In this document: positions 4,443 to 58,445 of the stretch, one piece after another | Layout: every line of letters starts with the position of its first letter | Numbering within the stretch: position 1 is the stretch's first letter | Origin: Bacteroidota bacterium | GTDB taxonomy: Bacteria; Bacteroidota; Bacteroidia; CAILMK01; JACPUW01 | DNA length: 64,000 nucleotides | Assembly: GCA_016192035.1 (NCBI GenBank) | Contig: JACPUW010000004.1 | Location: forward strand, 62,001 to 126,000 | Direction of reading: 5' to 3' | Program-made: the position numbers and the translations under genes | Notes under the pieces: generated by a model | The model's database searches: none | Told to the model about the DNA's origin: nothing | Seen by the model: only the letters and a program-made list of their open reading frames with translations

Positions 4443-5164
4443 TTTCTCAGGGCTACCCTCGCTTTGGTCAAAAAAACAAACACGGCCACAAACCCTATGA
4501 AATACACCACGTCACGGCTATCAACCACCCCTCGGCTTATGCTGGTATAGTGCTGCTGCAACCCCACAAAACCTATGGCCCCGGCCAGTGGACGGAGGGC
4601 TTGGAGTGCAAGCAACCAATCGGTGAGGCCGTAGAAAAAAAAACAAAGCAGGAGGGCCAGGATAAATGATACTATTTGGTTATCGGTGAGCGATGAAGCA
4701 AAGACTCCCATGGAAACGAAAACCACGCCTATGGCCAATAAACCCACATAAGAACCCACCGTGGCACCTGTATCCATATTGCCTATGGGATTGGCCAATT
4801 CATATACCGCAAAGGCATACACCAGGGTAGGCAGGATGGCAAGCCCAACCAATACGGCACCGGCCATAAACTTTCCCATCACTATCTGTATGTCAGAGAT
4901 GGGTTTGGTGGCCAGGATTTCAAAAGTGCCGGTTTTCTGTTCTTCGGCAAAACTGCGCATGGTAATGGCAGGCACCAAAAACATAAAAACCCAAGGGGCT
5001 ATGTCAAACAATTGGTCGAGTGTGGCATAGCCTTGGTCAAGTATCCCGCTATCGGGCAGCAGCCAGAGGAATATCCCGTTGATGGTGAGAAATACCCCAA
5101 TGGCCAAATAGCCTATTAATGAACTGAAAAACAGGCTTATTTCCTTCCACATTACCGCTATCAT
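4436..5164 (-). CDS. gldF: Gliding-motility ABC transporter permease GldF
   Basis: This is a 242-residue ABC-2 type permease with about six hydrophobic segments, beginning with WKEISLFFSSLIGYLAIGVF. The family motif around RSFAEEQKTGTFEILATKPI, found in ABC-2 permeases coupled to CcmA-type ATPases, is at about residues 69-88. The start overlaps the stop of the ATPase gene as ATGA, and the end overlaps gldG. A second start at M5 is possible. Together with the ATPase it forms the membrane core of the GldAFG transporter. Confidence 0.9.
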   Translation of the reverse strand: MIAVMWKEISLFFSSLIGYLAIGVFLTINGIFLWLLPDSGILDQGYATLDQLFDIAPWVFMFLVPAITMRSFAEEQKTGTFEILATKPISDIQIVMGKFMAGAVLVGLAILPTLVYAFAVYELANPIGNMDTGATVGSYVGLLAIGVVFVSMGVFASSLTDNQIVSFILALLLCFFFYGLTDWLLALQALRPLAGAIGFVGLQQHYTSISRGVVDSRDVVYFIGFVAVFVFLTKARVALRKW

Positions 5165-6081: not shown

Positions 6082-6107
6082 ATGAATGGATGGATTTAGT
6101 GAACGCG

Positions 6108-6115
6108 CGAAATTA
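6108..6115 (-). promoter_or_regulatory. Candidate -7 element for the gldA operon
   Basis: The minus strand reads TAATTTCG, one base from TAnnTTTG, 26 bp upstream of the TTG start. No convincing -33 element was found. Its position upstream of the TTG but downstream of the 6216 ATG supports the shorter GldA. Confidence 0.35.
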
Positions 6116-6189
6116 GCCCCTTGGCAGCCTAGTGGGCACAGGGTATATACAGGCGCACCAGGCAAATGGGCCAATAGGCCGCCGCTGGC

Positions 6190-6197
6190 TATATTTG
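6190..6197 (+). promoter_or_regulatory. Candidate -7 element for the AddA-like gene
   Basis: TATATTTG matches TAnnTTTG exactly and lies 12 bp before the ATG at 6210. Transcription would begin only a few bases before the start codon. No clear -33 element is visible. Confidence 0.35.
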
Positions 6198-6209
6198 GCC
6201 AAATCCGCC

Positions 6210-9200
6210 ATGCCACTCAGCATCTACATCTCCTCGGCAGGTTCAGGCAAAACCTATACACTGGCCAAGGAATACATAAAACTCTTGCTCCAGAATCCCT
6301 ATGGGCACCCCCATATACTGGCCGTGACCTTTACCAATAAGGCCACCCAAGAAATGAAAGAACGGATACTGCACTTTTTGGATGAGTTGGGCAAAGGCAA
6401 CAACCCAAGCCTCCTGGGGCAGTTGGTGGCAGAAACCGGCCTCTCACCGATCTTGATAAGGGAAAAATCCTTGTTGGCCCTCAGCCATATCCTGCACCAC
6501 TACGCTGATTTTACCATCCTGACCATCGACTCGTTTTTCAATAAGGTAATCCGGGCTTTTGCCCACGAGCTCAGGCTGCCCCTGCGCATGGAGGTGCAGC
6601 TTGATACCCAAGAAGCCCTGGACTATGCCTATGACCGACTGATGGTACAACTGGACATAGACCCACTGCTCACTGCCTATCTCACCAATTTCATTTATCA
6701 CCGCATAGAAGAATCAAAAGGCTGGAGGATAGAAGAGGACATAAAGGAGTTGGCAAGCGAACTCTTCAAGGAATCCTTCGACCCAGTTTTCCAATCCCTC
6801 CATAAAGTCTCTATGGATAAAATTGAGGCATTGCTGGCTGATATCATGGACTATATGAAAACCGTGCAGCATACCTTAGCGGGTTTTGGCAACCAATGGA
6901 AAGATGCCATGGCTACTTATGGACTTTCGGTGGACGATTTTACCTATAAAAACAAAGGGGTAGGCGCTTTTGGCGGGCACATGGCGCAGCTGCGCACAGA
7001 CAAGCTGAAAGAACCCGGCACACGGGTAATGGAGGCCAAAGACAACGTAGAGAAATGGTATGCCAAGGGGCATCCGCGCAAAGACCAAGTGGCCGCTTGC
7101 GTGGAAGAACACCTGATGGGGCTCTTGCACCAGGGTTTGGATTATTGGGCCCAACATCAAGAAAAATACGTGGTATCAAGCATCTTGCTGCGCAACCTGC
7201 ACGCGCTTGGGGTGCTATACACCCTGCACGAGCACCTCAAGGCATACCGCGATGAACACAACAAAATCCTTATTTCAGACCAAAACCGACTCATAAATGA
7301 GGTGGTTAGCCAAGGGGAAATACCCTATCTCTACGAAAAGATAGGAACCCGCTACCAGCATTTCTTGCTTGATGAATTCCAAGACACCTCGGCAATACAA
7401 TGGAGCAATTTTAAGCCCTTATTGGCCAACGCCTTGTCAGAAGGAGGGCAGGTACTGGTGGTAGGTGATGGCAAACAGAGTATATACCGGTGGCGCGGTG
7501 GGCGCATGGAACTCCTTATGGAACAAATCCATACCGACCTGGCTGGGTATGTCACACCCAATAGCCTTCAGCACTTGGCTGCCAACTACCGCAGCCGACA
7601 GGATATCATTGAGTTTAACAACCTATTTTTTTCTGGCATTTTACAGAGCGTCAAAACCAAATATCAAATAGAAAGCCCATTGGCCGAGTTGGCTTTTGGA
7701 CAATCAAGCCAAAACACCACACCGCATACCCAGCCGGGCGGCATGGTGAGCATAGCCCTATATGAGCCCACCGACGACGAAAGCGGCGATACCGAAGATA
7801 CCTATGCCCAAATAGAAAATGACGTACTCGACAGGATAGAACAACTTATAGCCCAGGGATATAACTATGGTGACCTGGCTTGTTTGGTGTGTACCAACCG
7901 CCAGGGGGCCCGCTTGGCAAATTTTCTTCACGACCAGGGACTGCCCGTGCAGAGCAGCGATTCTCTACGGGTGGGCCACGCTCCGGTGGTAAAACTCATA
8001 GTGGCAGTGATGCGCTTGGCACACGACCAAGACCAGGCCTTAGTACGCGGGCAAATTATTATGTTACTGCACCATATAGGGTTTCTTACGCCCGTGTCCC
8101 TGCACCGGGCACTCACACAGGCCAATGAATCCACTGAAGGGTTTTTAGCCTTGCTGGGCGAGCGGGGCCAATACTTGTTGATGCCCCCCATGGGCAGCAG
8201 CCTGCTCCACCTGGCTGGCCACATAGTGCGCCAACTGGGGCTTGAGGGCCAAGACCCCGTGTTTACCCAGCGTTTTTTAGAGCTGGTATATGCCTATGAG
8301 GCCGACAACCAAGGCCACCTGAGCGACTTCCTAGACTGGTGGGAAAAGACGTCATACAAGCATTGCATACAGTCTCAACCCATTGATTCCGTAACCGTTC
8401 TCACGGTTCACCGTGCCAAGGGCCTACAATTTCCCGTGGTACTATTTCCGTATGCCGACCGCAACATTAACCCCATGCCAAATTCCATTATGTGGTGGCC
8501 CAATAGGCTCTTTGCCCACCACGACCTGCCCTTTGTTCCATTCAATTTTTTAAAGGGGCTTGAAGATGGCCCATATGCTGAGGAATACGCACAGGAACTG
8601 GAGCTTAGCATGGTGGATGCCCTCAACTTGACCTATGTGGCTTTTACCAGGGCGCAAGACCGCCTGTATGTATTTGTGTCAGTGAACAAAAGGGGGAGCA
8701 CATCCAAGATTTCCAATTTGTTGAGTCACCATTTGGAGCATGATCCAGGGCTGGCTAAATACATGGATGGAAGTGTGATGGTGTATGGCGATACCCAAAC
8801 CCCAGTGCGATCTACCCAAATGGCAACGGTGGGTATGGAACTGGACCGGCTGGCAGTAGGCACGGAAAAAGTGACCGGCATAGCCAGGCCAAGCATAGGC
8901 CTAAGCGACCTATACGCCGATGGACAGGAAGCCCCACGCCTATCAGGGATACTGGCCCACAAACTGCTCCAGATGTGCCTGGATACTCAAGACACCGAAC
9001 ATAGCGTACGGCGGGCAGTGGCCCTGGGCCTGGCCACCGAAGAAACCCAGCTAGCATGGAAACAGGCGTTGGACCACATACTGGGCCACGAACAACTGAT
9101 ACAATGGCGAAAGGAAGCGGTAGCTACCTACCTGGAGCGCAGTGTGATATGGAAAGGCGATGTGCTCCGGCCCGACGTAATCTATGTGCTACCACAGGGG

Positions 9201-15674: not shown

Positions 15675-16148
15675 CTATATTCCTATATTAAGTACTTCCA
15701 ACTTGATATTGCCTGCGGGTACTTGTATATCCACCACATCGCCCACCACCTTGCCCAGTAGCCCTTTGCCTATGGGTGATGCTATTGATATCTTCCCTTC
15801 CTTGAGATTGGCCTCCTTTTCAGAGACCAATTGGTAGGTTACTTCCTTGTTTATCTTGTGGTTTTTCACGGTAACCTTGCACAGGGCGGTCACTTTTGAA
15901 GTGTCAATGGCCGACTCGTCGAGTATTCTGGAATTGCCAATGATGGCCTCGAGTTTGGCAATTTGGGCTTCCAAATGGCCCTGCTCATCCTTTGCGGCAT
16001 CATATTCGGCATTTTCCGAGAGGTCACCCTTTTCCCTGGCTTCGGCTATGGCGTTTGACAAGCGCGGACGCTCAACCGACTTGAGGAACTTGAGCTCCTC
16101 TTGCATTTTTTCAAAACCTTCACGGGTAACATAGGTCTTTTCGGTCAT
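15675..16148 (-). CDS. greA: Transcription elongation factor GreA
   Basis: The 157-residue protein rescues backtracked RNA polymerase by stimulating transcript cleavage. It has the N-terminal coiled-coil with the acidic tip (EAREKGDLSENAEYDAAKDE) and the C-terminal FKBP-like domain with SPIGKGLLGKVVGD. It is co-directional with the HIT gene. Its leader contains a strong hairpin that also serves as the terminator of the upstream secretion operon. Confidence 0.96.
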   Translation of the reverse strand: MTEKTYVTREGFEKMQEELKFLKSVERPRLSNAIAEAREKGDLSENAEYDAAKDEQGHLEAQIAKLEAIIGNSRILDESAIDTSKVTALCKVTVKNHKINKEVTYQLVSEKEANLKEGKISIASPIGKGLLGKVVGDVVDIQVPAGNIKLEVLNIGI

Positions 16149-16224: not shown

Positions 16225-16256
16225 CAAAGGTATGCTACGTACTAAAAACCAAGCAA
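16225..16256 (-). promoter_or_regulatory. Candidate promoter upstream of greA
   Basis: The minus strand has TACCTTTG at 16225-16232 and a TTG at 16254-16256, 21 bp upstream, giving a good TTG-N21-TAnnTTTG promoter that begins inside the 3' end of the porV-like gene. Transcripts would pass through the hairpin at 16183-16212 before reaching greA. Confidence 0.45.
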
Positions 16257-17303
16257 CACGCCCAGGGTATGGATCCCCGTGTACTTGTTGTAGGTATCCC
16301 GGTACGAATAGTCTATGCCAAGGGTTTTGCCCTCGCCATAAGGCAATTGGAAAGTAGCCCCAAAAGTGGGGCCACTGGCTACGTTGGTTGACAGTTCCTC
16401 ATTGAATATCTGCTCTTCATATGCAAAGCCCCCCCTAACAAAAACCATGTTCTTATAGCTGTATTCGGCGCCCAGGCTAATCACGTCGCGGCCAAATGAA
16501 TTGGCCATAAAATTTGCGGCCACATTGACCCCGCTACCTGCGCCAAGCACCAGCACCTTGTAACCCACGCCAATATTGAGCACCGAAGGCAGCTCAAAAG
16601 GAGCCACCCGTGATTTCATGGTCCTGGCCGTGGGGTTTAGCACACCGTCTTCGGTTGCCCTTCGGTCCACCCCATCGCCTGAATAGCTCATGGCAGGGCC
16701 TACGTTGCGCAGCGAAAAACCCAAGGTGAGCCTTTCATTGATGCTTTGGTACTGAATGCCCGCATCTATGCCCACGCCCATGGCGTTCATGTCGGCTATA
16801 GACTCTGAAACCATGCGAACGGTAATGCCGCCACTGGTTTGCTCAGAAAAGGCATAGGCAAAACTTAGCCCTATGTTGGTGTAAGTGGGTGAAAAAGTGC
16901 CCAATGTGCCATCGGGAAAATCTTCGGTGGTGCGGTAGAATTCGCCCATGTCAAACGACATGATGGAGAATCCCAGCGCTGCGGCATCGCCCAGTTTGGC
17001 CTTAAAACCAAAGGAATTGATATTGATACCGGCCCCACCAAACCAATTGGTACGGGTGAATGCAAGTTCGTTGTTGCTGGAGCGCACCAAGCCTGCCACA
17101 TTTAGCCTGATAGCCTCAATGCCCATGATGCTTGATGAATTTGCCCCTGCCCAGCCAGTGCTGCGGGCCCAGGGATTGATGAGCAAGTGGGTAGCCCCGG
17201 CTTCTCCTATCCGGTCAGGATTTCCGGCCTGGGTGGTGCCCGCCATGAGCAGCAGCCCAAGTATTCTTGTTATGGTCTTTATACGTATCATGCTGTAAAT
17301 CAT
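16242..17303 (-). CDS. PorV/PorQ-family T9SS outer-membrane protein
   Basis: The 353-residue protein has a signal peptide (RIKTITRILGLLLMAGTTQA) and then AGNPDRIGEAGATHLLINPWARSTGWAGA, the start typical of PorV-like 14-strand barrels. Alternating beta-strand character continues to a final aromatic, VLLGF, as in outer-membrane proteins. PorV carries T9SS cargo from the translocon to the attachment complex. It is 18 bp downstream of a T9SS cargo gene, so it may be a dedicated shuttle paralogue for that protein. M5 (17291) is an alternative start. Confidence 0.82.
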   Translation of the reverse strand: MIYSMIRIKTITRILGLLLMAGTTQAGNPDRIGEAGATHLLINPWARSTGWAGANSSSIMGIEAIRLNVAGLVRSSNNELAFTRTNWFGGAGININSFGFKAKLGDAAALGFSIMSFDMGEFYRTTEDFPDGTLGTFSPTYTNIGLSFAYAFSEQTSGGITVRMVSESIADMNAMGVGIDAGIQYQSINERLTLGFSLRNVGPAMSYSGDGVDRRATEDGVLNPTARTMKSRVAPFELPSVLNIGVGYKVLVLGAGSGVNVAANFMANSFGRDVISLGAEYSYKNMVFVRGGFAYEEQIFNEELSTNVASGPTFGATFQLPYGEGKTLGIDYSYRDTYNKYTGIHTLGVLLGF

Positions 17304-17321
17304 TAGTGTTGGTTATTAAAG

Positions 17322-20300
17322 TTAGAAAGTGTCCAAGTCTATGGGTTTCATTACCGCAAAGAACTTCACCGTGGTGCTGGCCCCTATTTTGGGCGCATCT
17401 ATATGTATGATATACACTCCGCTGGAAATGGGCACCTTAGCTTCATTTTTCAAATCCCAAAGCAATTCGGTATTATGGTAACCGGTGCCACTTGAGCCCT
17501 TGTTGAAAGTCTTCACCAATTGTCCATTTACTGTGTAAATCTTAATGGTGCATTCCTCAGGCAAGTTGGTCAATTTAACTAAGTTGTCAATCTGTGATGC
17601 CTCGTAATCACTCTGGGCATAATATGGGTTGGGCACTACCCGCACATTCTTTAGCGCTTCCTTTCCAAAGTCAGCTGAAAACTGGGGGGCTACCGATGCC
17701 GTGCTAAAGGTGTAGTAAGGCATGTTGCCGTTTTGTGGGCTTTCGGTGGTGGCATAGGTCTGGTAAGGACGGTTAACCCGCACGCTAATCCGGGTTTGGG
17801 TAGGTACCAAGCCGTCTTTCCACGACTTGAGGTCATACCCGGTGGCCAACATGGCCGGCATGACCCATGTGGCCGCCGACCAAACCCCACGCAGGCGGTT
17901 ATCCGTATAGTCACCTGAGGCGGGATCCAGGTACTTGGCGTATTGTTCGCAGCCGTCGTAGGTGGTTTCATAATTGCCACCACCCACTTTGAACCTTGAT
18001 TTACTTCCAATTACGTAAATGTAATGCATACCACCGACTATGGCTCCCCCATCGGCTATCACAGAAACGTTGGGATCGGCCAGTTGAGAAGATGGGTTCC
18101 AGATCATGTCTTTGGCATTGTCTTGTTTCAGCAAGGAGTTTTCGCCAATAATGATATTGAGCCTCTCGCCCGACTCCACATCAATGGCGTAACCTGGGAA
18201 CCAAGAAAATCCTTTTGAACTGCTGCTATATCTAGGGTTGCCGGATGCATCGGGCTCCAATTCAAGGGAGGCGTGTTGGCGGATTTCAAACTTATTGGCC
18301 CCGCCCTCCGTGCGGTTGGGGTCTTCGCCCATTTCACATACCAACACGCGCGACCATTTGCTGCGGTCAGAGGTGAAAACCAGGTCTATACTCGGCAGGT
18401 CATAGAAATTCTCGCATTCTAGGCCATAACTGGGTGCCTGGCATATGCCAAAGGTAGAGAACCCATTTTGGGCAGTGCTGCGCGATGTGAGCACATAGGG
18501 GGCCATCATACCGTTGGCCACCGTTTTATAGATTCCTTTTTCGTCAAGCAAGCCCATGGATGAGTAGGTAACATCATGGATACCAACCAATGCGGTCCTG
18601 TCTTGGTTTAAGTAAGATCCCGATCTAATCCAATCATAAATAATGGCCAATTCCGTGTTGGTGTTTTCTGACTGGGGCAGGGCTGACAACCACTCCACGG
18701 CATCATCTTCAAACACCACCTCGCTGCCTATTAGGCCGTTGGTTTGATCACCGGAACTGCCCAGCGGGCCATATTCCATACCGGCTTTTATGGAAAAGCC
18801 CCATTCGCTAATTACCATCTCGTTGTCGGTATAAAGCCCCCGTTCACCGCGCAGGGTTTCCCTGGTGCCATTGGGGTTGATCTTGGTGAGCACCCATAGC
18901 ACGGAATCAGCCTTCTTTCGGCTGTCGTTCAGGTTTTCCGAGGCTTTTGTCAACCGGTTGGTTGCCAAATTCAAGTCATCCAATGCTTCGCGGTATTCCA
19001 CCCATAGTTGTGTGGTATCGGCTTTTAGTGCGCTGATTTGATTTTCAAGCAGCACTTTGGCAGCGGCGTTGAGTATGGAATCGGTAGTTGATAGGCTGCC
19101 ACCCAATCTGGCCAGTACGCGTGTCAATGAGTCTTCCTTGAATTTGAGCTCGTTCTCCGCCTCGTCCAAATGGGATTTGGCCGTATTTGAAACACCTATT
19201 GAAGTATTGTACTCCCCTTTTCGGGCGCGCAGTGTTTGCTCTAGGTTGCCTATATCGGCCAATAGTACCTCTCCATCCGTTCCCTCTGCATCCCGATCAA
19301 TAAACCGGAGTTCAAAATCGGCAACGGGCACTTTTAGCGGGTCAATGATTTTGATCTCCACCGGACCATGTCCAATTTGATAGGTAGGCGTTTTAAACTC
19401 ATTGTCAGTGATTATCTTAAGTTCACTCTCTTCGGTCAATTTTATAAAAATGCCGCCATTGCCCTTTCCTTCCAAACGGGTAATCTCTGGCCCATCGCCA
19501 TAGGCAGCTTGAAGCTTGGTACCGTCATAAAGGATGTCGGTTTGTCGCGGGGTAACAGCTATCTGGGTAAAGCGGCGGCCCGCCAGGTACTGTCGGGGTT
19601 CATCGGTGCTGTTTTCGTCGGCGGCAGCATAGGCCACCAACAAGAAATGGTAGGTTTTGTGGTTGATAAGCTTGGAATTACCTGATGCAAAAGCATCGTC
19701 GGTTATGCGAATAACATGCTCTATGCCCTCATCGGCACCGTCCACCATTATAGAGGGTATGCTTTCGTCCACTTCGGGGTCATACTCCTTGTTTACCAAT
19801 CGGCTAATGCCATCCTTAAGGTCCACTTGCCAAACCTGCCGGGCAAAATCTGCATTGTACAATTGGTCAGGGGTTACTTGAGATGTGAGCAATTGGAACA
19901 GTTGGTAACCCTGGAAGGCGTATTCTACTTGTCCTCCATCGGTCGATATTTCAGTCTCCAGATAGTTTTCGGTGGCCACGTAATCCTCGCGGCCCATCAT
20001 GAGCACTACCTCCCTATCCAATTCTACCGATGCAACAGCAGGAGCATCAGGGCCGTCAAGTAGGTCAAAATTGTTGTTAAAGAGTTTTTGGGCTTTGTCA
20101 TCGGCCAGCAGCAAAAGGTCATAAGAACCGGTATTGCCACCGCTAGAAGCCCTGGCCCATACTGCACCTACCGTCACCCTGTTCACAGCACCTGGCCGCA
20201 GGGTAAATGGCCCAGCCGATTGCAGGAATCGCCTGTCGTTGGGTTGGTTGTTGGAGTTCACTTCGTTCCATCCGTTGGCGTCCCGTGGGTCGTCGGGAAA

Positions 20301-21689
20301 CATAAAGTCGGTACACCCTCCGCTGGCGGTGGTGTTGCCATTGCCACCAAAGCTTATGCAGTCGCCATTTTTCCACCTACCTATCAAGTAGTTGTAGAAG
20401 TCTGAACGGTTTTCGCCCCTGGGGTTTCCATAGGGGGTAAAATTGTTGTCGTAATAGACAAACTTGGACATGGCTATATCCTCATTTGGTTCGTCCACCA
20501 AGCCGTTGCGGTTGTTGTCTATGCCATCGCCCTCATATATGGTGGGCATATCGGTATAGCCTTCTGCCCTATACCACCAGTAATAGGTGGTATCCATTTC
20601 GTCGGTAAGGCCGTCGCCATCGTTGTCGCGTCCATCACCGTTTCCTCCCGGAAACACCACTTCCTTGTCGGCCTGGGGCCCTTCAAAAAAGTCCATCCCT
20701 ACTGATGGAGGGTTGGAGCCATAGCCAAAGGCACCGTCATCAAAGTTGTCGCCATTATAGCAAATGCCCAAACCCCGCTTAATATCACAACCTACATAGT
20801 CATCAAAAGCATAGCCAAGGTCGGCATCCACCCACTGGCCAAAATAGGTACTGTCCAGTTGTTTTTGACCGCGGTTAAATATGGTGGTTTCATAAAAGGT
20901 CATGTTGTTGATTTCGTCGTTGGTAGCAAATCCAAAGGCCATAGTCCTGAACTCTAGGCCGATTTCGGGCGAACCGGTCTCGGTCTTTAGGTTGCCCACG
21001 TCGTTATATACATACCAAAGGGCCTTGTCGCCCTTTATATCGGGATAGTCACCGGCAGCGGGGTCGTAGCTAGGTCCGCCGCCCACATTCATATACGGGG
21101 CCAAGAACCTGGCTTCGTGTTGGTCAGCACGGCCATTGCCAGGCCACTCCAGTATGTTTTTTGGGATTTCCGACACGCTACCGTTGGCCTCAAATTCTTC
21201 TATAAACGCGTCGATTTCCTCCCTGGTTACTTGAAAGATACGGTCCCAGTTATCGCAGTCCGTATCGTCCACGGCCACCGAAACCGTGTCTATGGGACCA
21301 GGCCAAAGGTCATTGCCCCCAAACTGTCTATAGGTCTGCGCAGCGGTGTGGATATTGCCATTGTTTAGCCCTCCTATCCATATGGAACCCGCAAACAAGG
21401 AGTGCCTCCGGGGTTCGTTGGAACCATCGGGCACTTTTGGTATCTCGTACTTGGCAGTACCTACCAGGTCCCACCACATATCGCCACCATTGAGAATGCG
21501 GGCCCGTACGTTGTTGATGTCCAGGTCAGCTTGTTTTGATGCGTTGACGCACCTGGCCTTTAGCCTTTTGTTGGAGATTGTTGGGCGCTTTTCTTCACCT
21601 GGGAGTTTATCGGCCAGTGCCGGTACCTGGGCCAGTAAAAGGAGCGAGAGTGTTATAATGGAAAAAACAAGTTTCATGTTCTTATTCAT
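17322..21689 (-). CDS. Giant secreted protein with T9SS type A C-terminal domain
   Basis: This 1455-residue protein has a signal peptide (residues 5-26) and ends in a T9SS sorting domain: VRVVPNPYYAQ, then IKIYTVNGQLVKTF and SSGVYIIHI. Around residues 350-400 are Asp/Asn-rich loops such as GRDNDGDGLTDEMD and GDGIDNNRNGLVDEP, resembling thrombospondin-3 or dockerin calcium sites. Residues about 814-928 form a predicted coiled coil, unusual in such proteins. The rest is unrecognised, although GSIWIGG and the Trp-rich regions recur in large Bacteroidota surface proteins. It starts 9 bp after the TonB receptor stop. A role as surface partner of that receptor is inference. Confidence 0.8.
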   Translation of the reverse strand: MNKNMKLVFSIITLSLLLLAQVPALADKLPGEEKRPTISNKRLKARCVNASKQADLDINNVRARILNGGDMWWDLVGTAKYEIPKVPDGSNEPRRHSLFAGSIWIGGLNNGNIHTAAQTYRQFGGNDLWPGPIDTVSVAVDDTDCDNWDRIFQVTREEIDAFIEEFEANGSVSEIPKNILEWPGNGRADQHEARFLAPYMNVGGGPSYDPAAGDYPDIKGDKALWYVYNDVGNLKTETGSPEIGLEFRTMAFGFATNDEINNMTFYETTIFNRGQKQLDSTYFGQWVDADLGYAFDDYVGCDIKRGLGICYNGDNFDDGAFGYGSNPPSVGMDFFEGPQADKEVVFPGGNGDGRDNDGDGLTDEMDTTYYWWYRAEGYTDMPTIYEGDGIDNNRNGLVDEPNEDIAMSKFVYYDNNFTPYGNPRGENRSDFYNYLIGRWKNGDCISFGGNGNTTASGGCTDFMFPDDPRDANGWNEVNSNNQPNDRRFLQSAGPFTLRPGAVNRVTVGAVWARASSGGNTGSYDLLLLADDKAQKLFNNNFDLLDGPDAPAVASVELDREVVLMMGREDYVATENYLETEISTDGGQVEYAFQGYQLFQLLTSQVTPDQLYNADFARQVWQVDLKDGISRLVNKEYDPEVDESIPSIMVDGADEGIEHVIRITDDAFASGNSKLINHKTYHFLLVAYAAADENSTDEPRQYLAGRRFTQIAVTPRQTDILYDGTKLQAAYGDGPEITRLEGKGNGGIFIKLTEESELKIITDNEFKTPTYQIGHGPVEIKIIDPLKVPVADFELRFIDRDAEGTDGEVLLADIGNLEQTLRARKGEYNTSIGVSNTAKSHLDEAENELKFKEDSLTRVLARLGGSLSTTDSILNAAAKVLLENQISALKADTTQLWVEYREALDDLNLATNRLTKASENLNDSRKKADSVLWVLTKINPNGTRETLRGERGLYTDNEMVISEWGFSIKAGMEYGPLGSSGDQTNGLIGSEVVFEDDAVEWLSALPQSENTNTELAIIYDWIRSGSYLNQDRTALVGIHDVTYSSMGLLDEKGIYKTVANGMMAPYVLTSRSTAQNGFSTFGICQAPSYGLECENFYDLPSIDLVFTSDRSKWSRVLVCEMGEDPNRTEGGANKFEIRQHASLELEPDASGNPRYSSSSKGFSWFPGYAIDVESGERLNIIIGENSLLKQDNAKDMIWNPSSQLADPNVSVIADGGAIVGGMHYIYVIGSKSRFKVGGGNYETTYDGCEQYAKYLDPASGDYTDNRLRGVWSAATWVMPAMLATGYDLKSWKDGLVPTQTRISVRVNRPYQTYATTESPQNGNMPYYTFSTASVAPQFSADFGKEALKNVRVVPNPYYAQSDYEASQIDNLVKLTNLPEECTIKIYTVNGQLVKTFNKGSSGTGYHNTELLWDLKNEAKVPISSGVYIIHIDAPKIGASTTVKFFAVMKPIDLDTF

Positions 21690-21698
21690 TTTATTGGT

Positions 21699-24600
21699 TT
21701 AGAATGACATAACAGCACCCAACCTAATGAGTCTGGGTCTGGTATAGTTACTGGGTTGCTCCATTTTCACCGTGTAGAGGTCTATGTAAGAATTCATGTT
21801 GCTGGTACTCAGCATGGCTTGTTGTCCTTCGGCCGAGCTCAGCCAGCCATCGTCGGTGGGCAGGCCGGTATATCTATACAAACCCACAATGTTCCTGGTA
21901 TTGAAAATGTTTTGCGCCCAGACATAGACCGTAATAGCACTTGCCTTGCCGCCCACTTTCAAGCCCGAGAGCTCATCGGTCTTTCCACCTATGGTGAGCG
22001 GGAAGGATTTGTCAATTCGCAAGTCCACGTTGTACAACCACGGATATCGGTTTCCATTGATGGATCCATCTATATTGGATCGCTGCTGTACACCTATGGC
22101 CACGGCCTGGGTCACGTTTTGCTGGCCGGTGTAGGGGGCACCCGACATGGCACTGGCTATCAAATTGATCCCAGCATCGGCAAAAATTTGCTTCCCCTTC
22201 TTGCTTACCAAGCCATTGTAATCTGTACCTCTTTGGTACCTGTAATCTAGCGACAAGACAAAGTTGTGCCTGCGGTCAGAGCCTGTGGGCTGCAAGGTGC
22301 GCAGGTTGGGCTGGCCTGCGTTGATCATGGCAGCCTGGGTGGTGGCACTGGAGCCAGTGGCATTGGCAAACTGTAGGGTATAATTGGCGTCTATGGTCAC
22401 ATTCTTGTTGTTAGAATACTGACTTGGGCGCAGCACATAGTTGAAAATAAAGCCTTTAACGGTTCCAAAGTCTAAGTTTCCATAGGTTGTGTAGTCTATA
22501 GGGTAGGCATAGCGTCGCGGTACGATTTGGATCATGTCGCGCAGTTCCTTATAGTATGCGTTCACCTTGATGGCCATGTTATCGCCTATGGTTTGCTGGA
22601 AGCCCAATTCGTAGCTAATAGTCTTCTCGGGCATCAAATTGGGGTTGCCAATGGCCGATGTGGACCGGGCAGGCAAGTAGTAGTATGCATCAATGGTAGC
22701 CACATTGGCTTCTTGCGGACGCTGGGTGAGCACATCGTAATTGGCAAAGAACATGGCCCTATCATTAATGGGGAAGGATACCGCCACCCTGGGCATGATA
22801 TTGATCTGAGGGCGGTAGTCTTCAAATGAATTCTCGGTAAGGCCTATCTTGCTCTGCTCCTTGCTATCGGCAAAAAATGTGTAAGGGGCTATGGTACCGG
22901 TTTGAGATTGTTGGGCAATCACGCCTGGGTCATTGGTTTCTGAGCCATCGGCCGTGTACCACGTAGTGCCGTTCCTATACCCCACCACCTTGGTAGGAGC
23001 GTATGGATCATCCACATACACCACATAGTCACTGCCTATGTTGCTTGGGGCCACGTGCTCGTTCAACCTGGCATCGTTGGTCAATTCACCTACCGTTTTC
23101 ACGGGGTACAAGGAATATTCGTCCTTGAGTACCCATTGGTTGGCATCAAATCGGTCAACCCTTAGGCCCAGGCGCAGGCTCAGGTTTTTGTAGATTACTT
23201 CATCCTGTATGTATCCGGCCATATAGATAGGATTGTATGGCGCTATAAGCCGCTCAGCTTCATTATCTAAATAATCGTTGATGGAGGGACGTCCCTTTAC
23301 TTTTTCGCCAAGGTGGTTATAGCCATAGTAGGCTACCGTGCCGTTCTGCAGCAGGTCATCGGCGCCAAACCACTCTAGTTGGAAGATGGATGGATCGTAG
23401 GCATCGGGATTAATAAAGGAAAACTTGTTAATGCGGTTGCCATTTACATCTTCGGCTTCCTGTTCCATGAGGTATGCCCTGAAATTCTTGTCAAAATTGG
23501 TCTGTTGGCCCTCATTTAACACTTTGGTAAATTTCACGGTATCCAAGAAAGAACCTTTGGCCTTGTGCAATTCATACCCGTAGAATTCGCCATCGGTGAA
23601 TACATAAATGGCACTGTCCATGGCGGTAGAACCAAACTTGATATGCCGGTTCACCGATTGCCGCATGGTATTCCAGAGTCCTGCTGCATTGATGCCATAG
23701 TATCTAGAGGTGCGCTCTTCATACCTGAATCCCACTTTGATGTTGTGGTTTTTCACGGTGCCGTTTAGGGCAAAGTTGAGGGAAACCTGTTCCTCTTGGG
23801 ACTTGGCATATGAGGTATATGGTGTGCCCACGTCATACCAAAGTGAGTAGAGCAAAGGCGGGGTAGTTCCGTTTATTAAACCCCCATTTTGTTGGATTTC
23901 ACTTAGGTTGAATACCCTGTTGTTGCGGAATCCAAAGTACTGTTTGGTGTAGTTGGCAGAGGTAGGGTTGGCGGTGCCAGGGGTAAAGCGAACGGCGGTA
24001 TCAAAAGGGGTTTCTTGCTCATAGAGCGCAAAAAGGCTAAAGGCAGAGTCCGTACCCTCATTCAGTTGGCGGAATCCCCATCCATATTTCTGACGATAGA
24101 TATCGAATTTGCCCACGTGGCCATAGTTAAATTCATTTTCCTGGTGCCTGGGGTCCCACCTTACGTTTTGAAAAGTGGTGTAGTCTAACTGTATAGAGTA
24201 CCCAGCATTTTGAACAGTGGAATTCTCCTCACTTTTAAATGTCTGACGGAGGCGCACATAACCTGCATAGGTTTCATTGGTGAACTCCGAGTTGTTCTCA
24301 TAGTTGAGCAGGCTATATGAGTAAATATAGTCATTGCCGGCAAACCGGTTTGCCCTACCGCCCAGGGTCAAAAACAAGTTGTCGTTGATTAGCCAATCCA
24401 CTTTTCCGTTTAGGTTGTAGCTGGTACTGGCAGTATTTGGCTTTACCTTCACCTTGGTCATGTCGTCCTTGGTAATGAACTCTGAACGGGACACAAACCC
24501 AGATCCAATAGGTGATGGGCGCAAGGGGTTGTTTTTGATGTCGTTGATCACATCTTCATTTACCTGCCAAATGCCAATGGGCGATGGGTCGGGATCCAAA

Positions 24601-25445
24601 CGATAGTTAAAAGTGCCCGACATGAGGTAGCCTACCTTGGCTATGCTGGCACCTGACACGGTGTCAACCACTTTTCGCAGAATAGGACCGGTGGAAAGTA
24701 GTTCAACGGTGTTGTACCCAAATCCATCCAAGCCCTCTGAGGTGATCACCTCAGCCCTGTTAAAAAACACGTTGCTGGGCCGGCGGGTGGTTATGTTCAC
24801 CACGCCCGAGGTGGCATCGCCAAATTCGGCAGGGATACCCGACTGATACACTTGGATTTCACCATAGGAAGAAACCGCCACAGCGCCACTACCACGCACC
24901 GGCATACCATCTATATAGGTAATCACCTGGTTTGAGCGGCCTCCCCTTATGACCGGATCTCCACCGTCAACCGACTGGACACCACCCGTTAAGGCGATAA
25001 CCCCTGTGGCGCCACGTACCGGCAGGCGGCCTATCTCTTCGGTGTTCTTTGAAGTAGATCCGCCATAAGACTCCTTAATCAAAGGCTTCTTGTCCTCAAC
25101 TATGACTTCAGGCATGATAATGTCATCGGGCACCATCTTAACAAAAATTTCTGTGATGTTACTGGAGTACACCGTAACACGCTGCTTGTGGGTGTTGTAA
25201 CCCAAATTGGTGACTTCAATTAGATAACCCGTGGGCTCCAGGTTGGATATGGTAGCCACTCCTTCTACATCGGTGGCATTGCCCTTAATAAACTGATCGC
25301 CGATTTTGACCACCACGTTGGCCCCAATGATGGCCTCTCCTTTCTCATCGGCCACATTGACCTTGATGGTACCCGATGTGACTTGCCCCAAGGCGGGGAA
25401 GGCGCATACGACAATCATTATCAGTGTTTTGTAAATGTGTTTCAT
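21699..25445 (-). CDS. TonB-dependent receptor with carboxypeptidase-regulatory-like domain
   Basis: This 1248-residue outer-membrane receptor has a signal peptide (residues 1-20), a beta-sandwich domain (about 22-110, GEAIIGANVVVK through NLGYNTHKQ), a plug domain with RGGRSNQVITYIDGMPVRG and GDATSGVVNITTRRP, and a large barrel ending in LIRLGAVMSF. No SusD-like lipoprotein follows; the partner is the 1455-residue T9SS protein. The ligand is unknown. A regulated promoter is likely in the 194 bp between it and the response regulator gene. Confidence 0.9.
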   Translation of the reverse strand: MKHIYKTLIMIVVCAFPALGQVTSGTIKVNVADEKGEAIIGANVVVKIGDQFIKGNATDVEGVATISNLEPTGYLIEVTNLGYNTHKQRVTVYSSNITEIFVKMVPDDIIMPEVIVEDKKPLIKESYGGSTSKNTEEIGRLPVRGATGVIALTGGVQSVDGGDPVIRGGRSNQVITYIDGMPVRGSGAVAVSSYGEIQVYQSGIPAEFGDATSGVVNITTRRPSNVFFNRAEVITSEGLDGFGYNTVELLSTGPILRKVVDTVSGASIAKVGYLMSGTFNYRLDPDPSPIGIWQVNEDVINDIKNNPLRPSPIGSGFVSRSEFITKDDMTKVKVKPNTASTSYNLNGKVDWLINDNLFLTLGGRANRFAGNDYIYSYSLLNYENNSEFTNETYAGYVRLRQTFKSEENSTVQNAGYSIQLDYTTFQNVRWDPRHQENEFNYGHVGKFDIYRQKYGWGFRQLNEGTDSAFSLFALYEQETPFDTAVRFTPGTANPTSANYTKQYFGFRNNRVFNLSEIQQNGGLINGTTPPLLYSLWYDVGTPYTSYAKSQEEQVSLNFALNGTVKNHNIKVGFRYEERTSRYYGINAAGLWNTMRQSVNRHIKFGSTAMDSAIYVFTDGEFYGYELHKAKGSFLDTVKFTKVLNEGQQTNFDKNFRAYLMEQEAEDVNGNRINKFSFINPDAYDPSIFQLEWFGADDLLQNGTVAYYGYNHLGEKVKGRPSINDYLDNEAERLIAPYNPIYMAGYIQDEVIYKNLSLRLGLRVDRFDANQWVLKDEYSLYPVKTVGELTNDARLNEHVAPSNIGSDYVVYVDDPYAPTKVVGYRNGTTWYTADGSETNDPGVIAQQSQTGTIAPYTFFADSKEQSKIGLTENSFEDYRPQINIMPRVAVSFPINDRAMFFANYDVLTQRPQEANVATIDAYYYLPARSTSAIGNPNLMPEKTISYELGFQQTIGDNMAIKVNAYYKELRDMIQIVPRRYAYPIDYTTYGNLDFGTVKGFIFNYVLRPSQYSNNKNVTIDANYTLQFANATGSSATTQAAMINAGQPNLRTLQPTGSDRRHNFVLSLDYRYQRGTDYNGLVSKKGKQIFADAGINLIASAMSGAPYTGQQNVTQAVAIGVQQRSNIDGSINGNRYPWLYNVDLRIDKSFPLTIGGKTDELSGLKVGGKASAITVYVWAQNIFNTRNIVGLYRYTGLPTDDGWLSSAEGQQAMLSTSNMNSYIDLYTVKMEQPSNYTRPRLIRLGAVMSF

Positions 25446-25563
25446 ACGAACTTTTCGTCGTTAAGTTTTCAAAAATGGAACATTTTGGTCATATTGACTT
25501 CATCAATCTGACATTTCGGGTGGTAGCCTTGCGGCCATGGATGTACATCAAACAATGCTGGTG

Positions 25564-25614
25564 CAAGGTAATCCTAAGACTGTCACGGCATGTATGTCAT
25601 TACATAGCTGTCGC
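25564..25614 (-). promoter_or_regulatory. Promoter-like element with three 14-bp-phased GACA repeats
   Basis: On the minus strand the tetramer GACA occurs at three positions exactly 14 bp apart (plus-strand TGTC at 25581, 25595 and 25609). Copies one and two share GACA-N3-ATG. Nine bases past the last repeat is TTACCTTG (25564-25571), one mismatch from TAnnTTTG. The repeats would occupy the -33 region and upstream, where an activator binds, about 110 nt before the receptor ATG. The neighbouring LytTR regulator is the obvious candidate; this is inference. The rest of the 25446-25639 gap shows nothing clear. Confidence 0.4.
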
Positions 25615-25639
25615 AAAAGTTTCATACTTGGATTATTGG

Positions 25640-26383
25640 TTATGCCTTGTTAAGTGCCGACATGAAATCGTCCTTCTTGCGCTTAGAAACATACACGGTC
25701 TGGCCGTCGCTCATTACCACATATCCCCCATCACCCCTTACGTACTTAGCTACTTCGTTTAGGTTTACCAAGTGACTGTGGTGTACCCGTACAAACTGGT
25801 AGGGCGAGAGCAGCTCCTCATATTCCTTGATTTTTTTGCTAACCAGGATCTTTTTATGCTCCTTGAAAAAGAAATGGGTATAGCTCCCATCGGCTTCGCA
25901 CCGGATTATATCGCTCACATTGACAAAAGTGAGCCCATCAGAACTGGGCAGGGCAATCTTGTGCTTGCCTCCACCGGCTTGGATGTTTTGGAGCAGGATT
26001 TCAAAGTTCCTTCCGTGCTGCTGGGCGGCCAACCGCTCCCTGGCTTTGGCCACGGCCTTGGTCAATTCTGCTGGGTCAATAGGCTTTAGCAGGTAATCCA
26101 CCGCGCTCATTTTAAGTGCCCTTAGGGCATAATTCTCAAATGCCGTGGTAAAAATGACATGGAACTGGTTGTTGCCTGCCTTTTCCAGTAGGTCAAACCC
26201 GGTACCGTCTTGCAACTCAATGTCAAGGAACAACAAATTGGGCTTGTGTACCCCTATGGCGTCCAGTCCATCGGTTACCCCTTCGGCATGTGCCAGTACT
26301 TCTACCTCGGCGCAGTACTCCTGCACCAGTGCGGCCAGCGATTCGCGGCTGCGCTTTTCGTCGTCAATGATAACTGCCTTCAT
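25640..26383 (-). CDS. LytTR-family response regulator
   Basis: This 247-residue regulator has a receiver domain (residues 1-120) with the acidic pocket IDDEKRS, phospho-acceptor LFLDIEL, the TTAFENYALRAL segment and conserved Lys in LLKPID. The second half is a LytTR DNA-binding domain: FVNVSDIIRCEADGSYTHFF, then VRVHHSHLVNL. LytTR proteins bind short direct repeats. It lies 24 bp downstream of its cognate histidine kinase gene and just upstream of the TonB receptor operon, which it may control. Confidence 0.92.
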   Translation of the reverse strand: MKAVIIDDEKRSRESLAALVQEYCAEVEVLAHAEGVTDGLDAIGVHKPNLLFLDIELQDGTGFDLLEKAGNNQFHVIFTTAFENYALRALKMSAVDYLLKPIDPAELTKAVAKARERLAAQQHGRNFEILLQNIQAGGGKHKIALPSSDGLTFVNVSDIIRCEADGSYTHFFFKEHKKILVSKKIKEYEELLSPYQFVRVHHSHLVNLNEVAKYVRGDGGYVVMSDGQTVYVSKRKKDDFMSALNKA

Positions 26384-26407
26384 GGTTTCAATTGTTTAAT
26401 ACGTGAT

Positions 26408-29400
26408 TTACTCCTCTATGTAATCGGCTATTGCTATTAGTACCCGTGTGCCCCCTACTGTGCCATCAGCACAGGGCACATCAGAAACCTCTACGGTATA
26501 GCGCCCTTTGGCGGCTGCCATAAGCCCAATGCGATCTTGGGTAACCTTCATGCCCAATGATTGGTACTTATTGGTTTTCAATGCTTTGATTTCAGCAGCT
26601 CTCTGCCTGCCTACCCCATTGTCTTCAATCGAGATTTGGATGCCCCCGGAGGTGCGCGCTACGCCAATGTGCAATTTGCCCATCCCCCCGGGTTTGTTCT
26701 TTATACCATGTATTATAGCGTTCTCCACGTAGGGCTGGAGCATCATGGTAGGGATTTCAATATCTTCGGCATCAATTGATTCGCCTATTTCTATTTGAAA
26801 ATCAAAACTCTCGTTAAAGCGCAGGCGCTCCAGGTCTATGTACAGTTTCAGCGTATCAAGTTCATCAGACAGAGCTATATACTCAAGTCGGGTGCTGTTT
26901 AATATGGCCCGCATTAGGGTGGCAAACTTGCTTAGGTAGTGGCGTGCGGCCCCCTTGTCGTTATTTTCAATAAAATGCTGTATGCTGTTGAGTGAGTTGA
27001 ATATAAAGTGTGGATCCATTTGTGCCCTTAGCGACGACAATTGGTGCTTGATGGATTCCCCCTCGGCACGCGCCAGTTTGAGCTCCGCCTCTACCAACTG
27101 CCGTTTGGCGCTGTTTCTCACGGTTTTTACCACCATAAAAGATACCCCGGCCACCATGAGCAAGGCAAGTACGAAGAGCATGGGCTGAAACCACCACTTG
27201 AGGTACACGGGGGCCATGATTTGCAACTGTACCGCATCACCGGTGGTATTCCAAACCCCGTCATTATTACAGGCCTGTACCCTAAATGTATATTTTCCAG
27301 GAGGTAGGTTGGTGAAAGCCGCGCTGCGCCCAAATCCCAAGTCCACCCAGTCTGAATTGAAACCCTCCAGCAGGTACCTAAACTTGTTAAGGTGGGAATT
27401 GACATAGCTAAATGCCACAAATTCAAAGAATATGGCATTGTTGGTGTATTGGAGTTGAATTAAATCCTTGTCAGCGAAACCCAAAGGCCCTACGGGTTCT
27501 CCCGGGTGATAGTAAGCCGAGATGTGTACGGGCGGGGCATAGGCATTTATGGACATCTCATCGGGATGAAACGAGTTGAAACCCTTGATACCGCCAAAGT
27601 AGATACGCCCGGTGTGCGCCCCCCTACAGTATGCCCCTTGGTTAAATTCATTGCTCTGTAAGTTACACGATTGGTCGTAGTTTTTAAATCTATGTGTTTC
27701 GGGGTTGAAAGCCGATAAGCCAAAATTGGTGCTCATCCAGATTAAACCCTCCCTGTCTTCCACAAAACCATACACCACATCGTTGGCCAATCCGTCTAAC
27801 TCTGTAAATGCCGTAAATATTTGTTTTTCTTGATTGTACAGGTTAAATCCCCCACCAAAAGTGCCTACCCATACCCTACCCTTATGGTCTTTGTATATTG
27901 ACATGACCTTGTCATAGCTTAGGCTGCTGGTGTCATTCGGACTGTGGGCCAGGTGGGTGATGCTGCCGGTGGAGGGTTGGATCACGGCTATGCCTCCCCC
28001 AAAACTGCCCGCCCACACCTCATCAGGCCCCACCATTTCTATGGCCAATACCGTATTGCTGCTAAATGTCCTGTTTTCCTCCGGATTTATATTGTACCAT
28101 ATAAAGTTGCCCGTTGCGGTATCCAGGCAGTTGATGCCCACGTCGGTTCCTATCCACAGCCTGCCCTGGCCATCAAATTTTAGGGCGTACACAGAGTTGT
28201 CACTGAGCAATTTCCCACCACCCGTGCTATCCTTTTTGTATGATTTAACCACGCCTGTGCGCGGATTGTACCTGGCTAGCCCATGCCCTAAGCTTCCTAT
28301 CCATATATTCCCATGTTGGTCGGGCGCCAGTGCCCAGATTTTTTCCAAATGTGAAAGCTCGTCAAAATGCCGGTAAGTATGGCCAAGAATTTTGCCTTGG
28401 CCGTCAAATTGGTGGCCAACAAGGCAAAGGCCTCCCCCATCGGTGCCCACCCACACATCCCCTTCGGCGTTTTCGGCCAGGGCAAAAACCCGTTCGGTGC
28501 CCTTAGCTGCGCGGAACTCGGCCTGGGGCCTATAGAGCCTAAACTGGCTTATGTATCGGTCATATTTGCTTATACCGCCATGATAAGTGCCTATCCACAC
28601 CACACCAGAGCGGTCTTGCACTATGGAAGTGACCACATTATCAGAAAGTGAATATTCGTCGCTGGGATGGTTGGCAAACCGCCTAAAGGTTTTATCATTT
28701 GCCGACAACACGGCCAAACCACCTCCATTGCTGCCCAGCCATAAGGTGCCATCATTGGTTTGGCATATGGCCGTAATGGGTTTACCCGCTTCCCCAATCT
28801 CATCATGTTCAACCACCCTGATTTTTTTTAGGCTTATGTCCAGAAAAACCGCTCCCATGTCAGTTCCCACCCAGGTTCCTTCAGGCAATGCGCAAATGGC
28901 GTACGCCGACGCATTGTTCAGGGCGAAGTACTCCTCGGTGGTTGGCAGTGGGGTAAGCTCGTTGGTCTTTCTGTTCCAAATGGCAAGTCCATAATCGTGG
29001 GCCACTAGCACATCACCTTTACCTGTAATGGCTATATCATTTACTTTAGAGTAGGATGCATCGTCAAATTCGATGGAAGAGAACGACTTCCTGTCGTATG
29101 AAATATCAAGGCCCAAATAGGTTCCCACCAATAAAAAGGAGTCGTGTTCCAGCACCGCATATACATCGTTGTGGGAAATCTGGTGTTCACTGCCGGTATT
29201 TTGAAAATTTTCAAACGCATGTTGGTCTGACCTGTAATAACTTAGCCCTCCTCCCAGGGTGCCTATCCAGAGGTTGCCTCCCGATGAAGGCTCTAGGCAA
29301 AAGATGAAATTATCGGCTATGGAATGAGGGTCACCAGGCCGGTTCCTAAAATGTATAAAATCGTAACCATCATATCTGTTAAGGCCATCGGCGGTGCCTA

Positions 29401-29614
29401 CCCACAGGTAGCCCACCTCGTCCTGTGCCAAGGCCAGTACCGAGCTCTGGGTAAGTCCCTCAGAAACCGACAAGCGCCTGAAATTGATCTCCTGTGCCAT
29501 AAGTACATGCGCCAGGAATGGCTGGAGCCAAATCAGTGCAAGGGATATGATGTTAGCGCGGGCCAAAGAATGGGTTGTTTGAAGCGGGGTCAATTTAAGA
29601 TTTGTTAAGACCAC
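26408..29614 (-). CDS. Sensor histidine kinase with periplasmic two-component propeller
   Basis: This 1068-residue membrane kinase starts with a signal/anchor (about residues 22-41), then a 14-repeat-type beta-propeller (about 45-690) with many copies of the form LWIGTxGGGL, a Y_Y_Y domain (KFRYLLEGFNSDWVDLG, PPGKYTFRVQACNNDG) and one membrane helix (MLFVLALLMVAGVSFMVV). The cytoplasmic LytS-type kinase has QMDPHFIFNSLNSIQHF with the phospho-His and an ATPase N-box LQPYVENAIIHGI plus IEDNGVG. It pairs with the LytTR regulator. In gut Bacteroides such sensors detect glycans; the signal here is unknown. The start is a GTG and is uncertain. Confidence 0.88.
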   Translation of the reverse strand: MVLTNLKLTPLQTTHSLARANIISLALIWLQPFLAHVLMAQEINFRRLSVSEGLTQSSVLALAQDEVGYLWVGTADGLNRYDGYDFIHFRNRPGDPHSIADNFIFCLEPSSGGNLWIGTLGGGLSYYRSDQHAFENFQNTGSEHQISHNDVYAVLEHDSFLLVGTYLGLDISYDRKSFSSIEFDDASYSKVNDIAITGKGDVLVAHDYGLAIWNRKTNELTPLPTTEEYFALNNASAYAICALPEGTWVGTDMGAVFLDISLKKIRVVEHDEIGEAGKPITAICQTNDGTLWLGSNGGGLAVLSANDKTFRRFANHPSDEYSLSDNVVTSIVQDRSGVVWIGTYHGGISKYDRYISQFRLYRPQAEFRAAKGTERVFALAENAEGDVWVGTDGGGLCLVGHQFDGQGKILGHTYRHFDELSHLEKIWALAPDQHGNIWIGSLGHGLARYNPRTGVVKSYKKDSTGGGKLLSDNSVYALKFDGQGRLWIGTDVGINCLDTATGNFIWYNINPEENRTFSSNTVLAIEMVGPDEVWAGSFGGGIAVIQPSTGSITHLAHSPNDTSSLSYDKVMSIYKDHKGRVWVGTFGGGFNLYNQEKQIFTAFTELDGLANDVVYGFVEDREGLIWMSTNFGLSAFNPETHRFKNYDQSCNLQSNEFNQGAYCRGAHTGRIYFGGIKGFNSFHPDEMSINAYAPPVHISAYYHPGEPVGPLGFADKDLIQLQYTNNAIFFEFVAFSYVNSHLNKFRYLLEGFNSDWVDLGFGRSAAFTNLPPGKYTFRVQACNNDGVWNTTGDAVQLQIMAPVYLKWWFQPMLFVLALLMVAGVSFMVVKTVRNSAKRQLVEAELKLARAEGESIKHQLSSLRAQMDPHFIFNSLNSIQHFIENNDKGAARHYLSKFATLMRAILNSTRLEYIALSDELDTLKLYIDLERLRFNESFDFQIEIGESIDAEDIEIPTMMLQPYVENAIIHGIKNKPGGMGKLHIGVARTSGGIQISIEDNGVGRQRAAEIKALKTNKYQSLGMKVTQDRIGLMAAAKGRYTVEVSDVPCADGTVGGTRVLIAIADYIEE

Positions 29615-29667: not shown

Positions 29668-30606
29668 TCAAAGGACTCCCATTTTTTGAAGCAGGAATTG
29701 GTGCATCTTATCGCGGGCTTCGTAGGTCCAGCCGGCAATATGCGGAGTGACAATAGCCCTTTCCGATTCCAGCATTTTGTCTATCAGGGCTACGTCCCCA
29801 TCGCTGTTCTGAATTAAGGGTTCCTTTTCCAGCACATCAAGGGCGGCTTTTAGCACCTTGCCTCTCTCCATGGCCCTATATAATGCCGGAAGATGGCAAA
29901 TAGCTCCTCTTGATGTATTTATAAAGTAAATGGGCCGGTCAAAAGCGTCAAAGAAAGCATCGTTGGCATAGTGGTAAGTCTCAGGGTTGAGCGGCAGGTG
30001 CAGGCTCACCATCTCGGCTTCTGCAAACACCTGTTCAAGGGGCACCAAACCAGTCCCCAAGCCATCCACCTGGTATTTATACTTGTCGTGGGGAAGGAGC
30101 TTTACCTCAAATCCCCTGATTTTGTTGCAAAAAGCCAAGCCGGTGTGGCCCACGCCAATCACACCCACTGCCCTGCCTTGCAGCTCTATACCGCGATTTT
30201 CTTCCCTTATCCAGGCGTGCCGGCGGGCCTCACCCACTGCCTTCACCAGGTTGTTGGCAAGGCAGAGCAATAAGCCCAGGGTGTGCTCGCCCACTGCGTT
30301 GGCATTGCCTTCGGGGGAGTTTATCACGTGGATATGGTGCTCTTTGCAGTATGCCATATCAATGTTATCGAGTCCACTTCCTGGCCTCAGCACTAGTTGG
30401 ATGGCCGAAAAATGGGCAAAAAAACGCTCATGGAGCTGTAGGGCACTCTTTATAAGTATGGCCTGGTACTCATTGGGCAGGTCATACAAACCCTGGTTGT
30501 CTATCATTGGCCTGTATTCCAGCTCATACCCCTTTTTAGAAAGGGCATCCATAAAAAAAACGGGACACTCATCACAAATGAGCATCTTGGGCGCTTGGGC
30601 TTTCAT
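29668..30606 (-). CDS. D-isomer-specific 2-hydroxyacid dehydrogenase
   Basis: This 312-residue NAD-dependent dehydrogenase reduces or oxidises a 2-hydroxyacid. Visible are GSGLDNIDM, the Rossmann motif GVIGVGHTGLAF, the catalytic Arg in INTSRGAICHL, Glu in DVLEKEP, and the His in VTPHIAGWT. The ATG at 30606 (MKAQAPKM) is preferred to the upstream one at 30630. Sequence resembles phosphoglycerate dehydrogenase-like proteins, but the ACT domain is absent, so it is not a long SerA. It follows rsmA on the same strand. Confidence 0.85.
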   Translation of the reverse strand: MKAQAPKMLICDECPVFFMDALSKKGYELEYRPMIDNQGLYDLPNEYQAILIKSALQLHERFFAHFSAIQLVLRPGSGLDNIDMAYCKEHHIHVINSPEGNANAVGEHTLGLLLCLANNLVKAVGEARRHAWIREENRGIELQGRAVGVIGVGHTGLAFCNKIRGFEVKLLPHDKYKYQVDGLGTGLVPLEQVFAEAEMVSLHLPLNPETYHYANDAFFDAFDRPIYFINTSRGAICHLPALYRAMERGKVLKAALDVLEKEPLIQNSDGDVALIDKMLESERAIVTPHIAGWTYEARDKMHQFLLQKMGVL

Positions 30607-30655
30607 GGGCACAAATAACCGCAACCCCAAGTCAAACCGAACTTAGTATGGCACC

Positions 30656-58441: not shown

Positions 58442-58445
58442 GGGC

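Follow-up and report, generated by a model that had tools for sequence, protein, structure and literature searches.

A recurrent gene trio for a TonB-dependent receptor, a giant T9SS cargo protein and a PorV-family barrel in Bacteroidota, and its possible likeness to SusCD

In SusC/SusD, RagAB and BtuB-BtuG, a TonB-dependent receptor works with a dedicated extracellular partner encoded by an adjacent gene, and such systems are multi-copy in some lineages, sometimes with a propeller sensor nearby. A different arrangement is found where surface proteins bearing a T9SS C-terminal domain (CTD) are held by barrels of the PorV/PorQ family: in P. gingivalis, PorQ is the anchor of PorZ and PorV that of PorU, PorV itself being a shuttle (PMC5562754). 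In F. johnsoniae, type B cargos need cognate PorP/SprF proteins, which are often encoded directly downstream (PMC12618676). Here we analyze a locus, in a 64,000-nucleotide stretch of DNA from a member of the Bacteroidota (the window), that has something in common with each of these arrangements. It shares with the first group the adjacency of receptor and putative partner, the occurrence of many copies in some lineages and the occasional propeller sensor, but unlike SusC/SusD, whose partner is a lipoprotein, it encodes as putative partner a large protein with a T9SS CTD, its third gene encodes a PorV-family barrel, its receptor matches no SusC model and SusD is absent. If our proposal is right, it also resembles PorZ-PorQ and PorU-PorV in that a barrel of the PorV/PorQ family keeps a surface protein with a CTD in place, although that barrel falls into a separate subfamily, the cargo lacks the body of PorZ or PorU and a TonB receptor is included. 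As in the type B pairs, the cargo gene is followed directly by the gene for an outer-membrane partner, but the CTD is predicted to be of the type A/PorZ-like kind, the barrel belongs to the PorV family and a receptor is added. The BAM complex, which we considered on account of the unusual surface subunits of Bacteroidota BAM, has a BamG/H/M/P composition that does not match. No description of the trio was found in the open-access papers searched.

The open reading frames of the window place five genes in a single run on the minus strand (as are all features of this locus described below), in the order beta-propeller sensor histidine kinase (26408-29614, with a GTG start), LytTR response regulator (25640-26383), TonB-dependent receptor of 1248 aa (21699-25445), giant protein of 1455 aa (17322-21689) and PorV/PorQ-family outer-membrane protein of 353 aa (16242-17303). 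The intergenic gaps are 24 bp between kinase and regulator, 194 bp between regulator and receptor, 9 bp between receptor and cargo and 18 bp between cargo and PorV-family gene. The best terminator-like site of the region, a strong putative intrinsic terminator that closes the unit, has a 13-bp stem (16212-16183) followed by TTGTTTT and lies between the stop codon of the PorV-family gene and greA (15675-16148), a conserved downstream neighbor that marks the locus but stands outside the module. A D-2-hydroxyacid dehydrogenase gene (29668-30630) is the conserved upstream neighbor; both flanking genes were assigned by domain search. A sequence-only reading of this DNA had described the same-strand, five-gene arrangement with its terminator, and the coordinates, gaps, domains and hairpin all agree with it. 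The core of the module, however, is made up of the last three genes, those for the receptor, the cargo and the PorV-family protein.

Domain searches showed that the receptor consists of a CarboxypepD_reg domain, a plug and a TonB-dependent barrel. The barrel scored 44 bits against PF00593 (cut-off, 27). The plug scored 18.1 bits against PF07715 in the window, under the cut-off of 23.9, and 34.9 bits in a relative, and the plug motifs are conserved in the trio receptor. None of the SusC-type family models matched, and NCBIfam gave only a weak match to PRK13483. As sequence queries against the PDB, the receptor, the cargo and the PorV-family protein returned nothing useful.

The matches of the cargo to Pfam/NCBIfam-type models were confined to the C-terminal sorting domain (approximately aa 1345 to 1455; 17325-17657), with PorZ and PorU the best. 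The type A CTD model TIGR04183 gave 21.7 bits against a cut-off of 23, with 21.8 bits for the homologue at locus L117 and no match at L065 or L134. In AlphaFold models of the cargo (mean pLDDT, 80.7 for aa 24 to 802 and 81.6 for aa 926 to 1455), the CTD is predicted to form a beta-sandwich whose closest solved structure is the CTD of PorZ (5m11; E = 9.5e-6), followed by the T9SS-bound NucA CTD (8glk_D) and then PorU (6za2). The cargo CTD is thus predicted to fold like those of PorZ and PorU. Structural comparison of the N-terminal part, or body, gave no informative match (best TM, ~0.2), and folds of the GH94/GH116 enzyme type were set aside for it at that same TM of ~0.2. The T9SS itself is present in the window's genome, in which SprA, PorV and PorQ were found.

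Homologues of the cargo are usually 1250 to 1400 aa long. The 1455 aa of the window protein are partly lineage specific, because two inserts are missing from most homologues: an acidic, DNDGDG-rich one at approximately aa 344 to 395 (20505-20660; ~85% gaps across homologues) and one at approximately aa 805 to 925 (18915-19277; 84 to 91% gaps) with a weak coiled-coil match to CCDC39. Conservation along the alignment is highest in the last five residues (0.82), compared with 0.69 to 0.79 in N-terminal blocks and 0.62 to 0.70 in the rest of the CTD. The window cargo ends in the tail KFFAVMKPIDLDTF, and core-subfamily cargos terminate in a tail such as KWMGVMRELDLDSF, past the usual end of a CTD; many paralogous cargos outside the Bacteroidia have an ordinary type A CTD ending (KFAIIK). 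We also observed cargo relatives outside trios. Solo full-length paralogues, with no receptor or PorV-family neighbor, lie at L141, L144, L164, L165, L167, L173, L181, L183, L185, L188 and L197, most of them with the same C-terminal tail, and open reading frames of ~490 to 535 aa at L054, L055 and L056 match the cargo in its N-terminal part only and apparently lack a CTD.

The sequence-only reading had called the third protein a PorV-like shuttle. It does belong to the PorV/PorQ family (NF033709, 130.8 bits; cut-off, 90), and scores of 56, 69 and 46 bits against the PorV, PorQ and PorV2 equivalogs fall well below their cut-offs of 250, 220 and 325. The window's genome separately encodes PorV (with a PorU-like gene directly 5′ of it), PorQ, PorV2 and one more, unassigned family member. 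By these scores, the trio protein belongs to a subfamily separate from those of PorV, PorQ and PorV2. The cargo does have a PorV-family gene of its own, as had been claimed, but by analogy with PorQ, which serves PorZ, we favor the role of a dedicated anchor or receiver for its product over that of the general shuttle. A dedicated barrel for the trio cargo follows the logic of PorQ-PorZ and PorV-PorU and also that of the PorP/SprF type B pairs. A PorV/PorQ-family protein of the window's genome encoded at L051 (9411-10406) fits no named equivalog; its gene overlaps that for a 409-aa protein by a few bases, possibly another anchor pair. At L105, L132 and L186 (e.g., L186, 4873-18880), the order is receptor, cargo, PorV family, second cargo and greA, so that a single PorV-family gene may serve two cargos there.

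A scan of 84,980 genomes yielded 80 cargo loci, and uncultivated Bacteroidota account for all, or nearly all, of them. The receptor orthologue lies directly 5′ of the cargo gene in 75 of the 79 resolvable named loci and the PorV-family gene directly 3′ of it in 70 of 74, typically with gaps near 20 bp. Within the class (Bacteroidia), the trio is usually single-copy and sits in a housekeeping neighborhood next to greA and HIT, greA being the next gene after the trio in 63 of 70 named loci. The wider locus is old too, with the D-2-hydroxyacid dehydrogenase gene on the 5′ side and greA, HIT, ruvC and genes for a membrane protein and a glycosyltransferase on the 3′ side. Synteny within the class is not sufficient proof of joint function, because it extends to greA and HIT almost as much as to the trio, and the argument is carried instead by the joint loss of the three genes and by the multiple trios found in other classes.

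Within the class, cargo homologues were found in 240 of the 296 genomes. In a subset of 149 genomes, 125 carry the receptor orthologue and 124 the PorV-family orthologue; about 125 of the 128 cargo-positive genomes have the receptor, and the same is true of the PorV-family protein. Both are absent from the cargo-negative genomes among those listed. A Fisher test that takes the cargo-negative genomes as an inferred 21 and ignores phylogeny gave a P value of ~1e-22. On an SprA tree of 40 genomes, the absence of the trio requires at least four changes, and the association is thus not a single event. SprA itself was found in all cargo-positive genomes but one. The co-occurrence of receptor, cargo and PorV paralogue that the sequence-only reading had proposed was accordingly strongly upheld, by the neighborhoods, by joint presence and absence and by the distribution of hairpins. 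In relatives, a terminator-like hairpin follows the PorV-family gene in 79 of 122 gaps, and none lies in the 136 and 131 gaps within the trio, a comparison biased to some extent by the shorter length of the inner gaps. The Flavobacterium-like genome G072, whose SprA scores 4450 bits to the sequence of the F. johnsoniae structure, lacks the trio; the trio may have gone unstudied because it is missing from at least one such genome.

In other classes of Bacteroidota, the cargo model finds relatives that often number at least eight per genome. The order receptor-cargo-PorV was found in 17 of 20 loci chosen from these classes, in some of which a 3-phosphoglycerate dehydrogenase-like gene adjoins the trio. 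Across 12 of their genomes, a PorV-family gene lies directly downstream of 72 of 83 cargo CTD hits; in four genomes, a receptor lies upstream of 34 of 36 such hits, and 31 of the 34 loci read are full trios. The order recurs in dozens of families, more than chance would give. Many divergent trio paralogues are present per genome, and in three genomes (with 10, 7 and 9 read trios) the within-genome distances among receptors, cargo bodies, CTDs and PorV-family proteins correlate with one another (r = 0.71 to 0.94; P < 0.005); in a fourth genome, with five trios, the correlations were mostly not significant. Judged from these distances, paralogous trios diversify together.

The locus had also been set apart from SusC/SusD loci by its lack of a SusD lipoprotein, and this proved correct: no SusD family match was found in any locus protein scanned, and the window's whole genome contains 0 SusD_RagB matches. 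In 14 other trio genomes, SusD_RagB counts ranged from 0 to 6 (mostly 0 to 2), against 37 and 18 in two genomes that lack the trio, in a comparison that covers 17 genomes and the SusD_RagB family only and is uncorrected for phylogeny. These counts are in keeping with a role for trios like that of SusCD in other genomes but do not establish it. The trio-bearing genomes with zero SusD_RagB matches are G000 (that of the window), G046, G310, G314, G347, G350, G353 and G304.

The kinase has Reg_prop repeats (eight significant matches), Y_Y_Y and His_kinase, and its neighbor across the 24-bp gap has Response_reg and LytTR domains, so that the two constitute a propeller kinase-LytTR pair. The propeller architecture is common to the three kinases examined. 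The sequence-only reading had included this pair in its regulated module, but among the scored places, 126 in number, only 9 have a kinase gene, a LytTR gene or both immediately upstream; these are spread over several families, and a kinase plus a LytTR gene lie directly 5′ of two solo cargo genes (L167 and L185). The pair is a repeated regulatory association, accessory to a minority of copies, and not a component of the module. The 194-bp gap 5′ of the receptor (25446-25639) is a probable promoter or regulatory region; its conservation among four relatives is patchy, and no LytTR site could be established from them. Matches to sigma-70-type promoters showed no clear excess over shuffles.

Taken together, these results make it almost certain that the receptor, cargo and PorV-family genes, which the majority of the sampled Bacteroidota carry and which are inherited together, constitute one functional unit. 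We infer a physical complex of their products, anchoring by the PorV-family protein, uptake and regulation, as follows. The three genes would be one transcription unit, and their products would arrive by two export routes and form a single outer-membrane assembly: the receptor and the PorV-family protein would be inserted as outer-membrane barrels, and the cargo would be directed across the inner membrane by its signal peptide and then be carried across the outer membrane by the T9SS, after which its CTD would be held by the PorV-family barrel, as in PorQ-PorZ and PorV-PorU. The large, multidomain, beta-rich cargo would then sit over the receptor and bind or present a substrate, which the receptor would import with TonB energy, making the cargo a T9SS-delivered counterpart of SusD. 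Because the N-terminal part has no informative structural relative, ligand binding by the cargo is a guess. In the window's lineage, expression would be controlled by the propeller kinase and the LytTR regulator. We lean, by a little, toward the view that the T9SS-delivered extracellular partner, its own PorV-like anchor barrel and the receptor constitute a TonB-dependent uptake complex analogous to SusCD. The wider proposition is more tentative and perhaps does not hold, namely, that the trio is an alternative to SusCD of ancient origin and found across the phylum (TonB uptake with a T9SS-exported extracellular subunit and a dedicated PorV-family barrel) that is multi-copy in SusD-poor classes and was given up in SusCD-reliant lineages.

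The same genes could instead encode a structural or envelope-maintenance assembly, in which a large surface protein is mounted on the receptor-like barrel and nothing is imported. The single-copy state and housekeeping setting of the very widespread Bacteroidia trio would suit such a role, as would the finding of no carbohydrate-degrading enzyme beside the trio in the window. We nevertheless think it unlikely, given that the receptor retains its carboxypeptidase-regulatory, plug and TonB barrel domains, together with the plug motifs, and that genomes of other classes each carry many divergent paralogues, as would be expected from substrate diversification. A role primarily as a sensor in the window's lineage, with ligand captured by the cargo, imported by the receptor and read by the propeller kinase, is highly improbable: although kinase and LytTR genes adjoin copies in several families, including the two solo cargos, most copies work without them, and the ordinary regulation of an uptake operon accounts for the same facts.

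It is quite unlikely, too, that the role of the PorV-family protein ends with shuttling its own cargo, which would then pass to PorU to be trimmed and either linked to LPS or released, the receptor being an independent, coregulated transporter. PorV and PorP/SprF offer precedents (the latter being cognate shuttles for type B cargo [PMC12618676]), and the KFAIIK-type ends of many paralogous cargos outside the Bacteroidia point the same way; against this, the cargo CTD is similar to the CTDs of PorZ and PorU, two proteins that stay on PorQ and PorV, the tail of the core subfamily is conserved beyond the usual CTD end and the receptor codiversifies with both other proteins. That the three genes are neighbors by descent only, with no joint function, is scarcely credible. 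The presumably unrelated greA and HIT are also kept nearby, but mere descent sits poorly with the joint absence of all three genes, with the finding that single genomes of other classes carry codiversifying trios at many separate positions and with terminators that follow the third gene only.

If TonB-dependent uptake through the trio is confirmed, TonB transporters throughout the phylum would possess an overlooked second means of gaining an extracellular partner, through the T9SS rather than lipoprotein export. Functions could then be assigned to many unassigned PorV/PorQ-family proteins and large T9SS proteins, and the result would bear on nutrient uptake in Bacteroidota lineages with few SusD genes. 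The hypothesis is a testable link between the T9SS and TonB uptake.

Elsewhere in the window, a gene for a C5 cytosine DNA methylase of 520 aa (55057-56619) lies beside a 478-aa open reading frame (56659-58095) that has no Pfam match and is possibly a restriction partner. Two other likely T9SS substrates are encoded at 46961-49534 and 58398-61337, one with PKD and Por_Secre_tail and one with a CHU_C type B signal. Finally, an ABC_transp_aux protein and an ABC ATPase (2724-6216) resemble the gliding-associated gldG/gldF/ATPase cluster and lie close to dnaN (527-1651).
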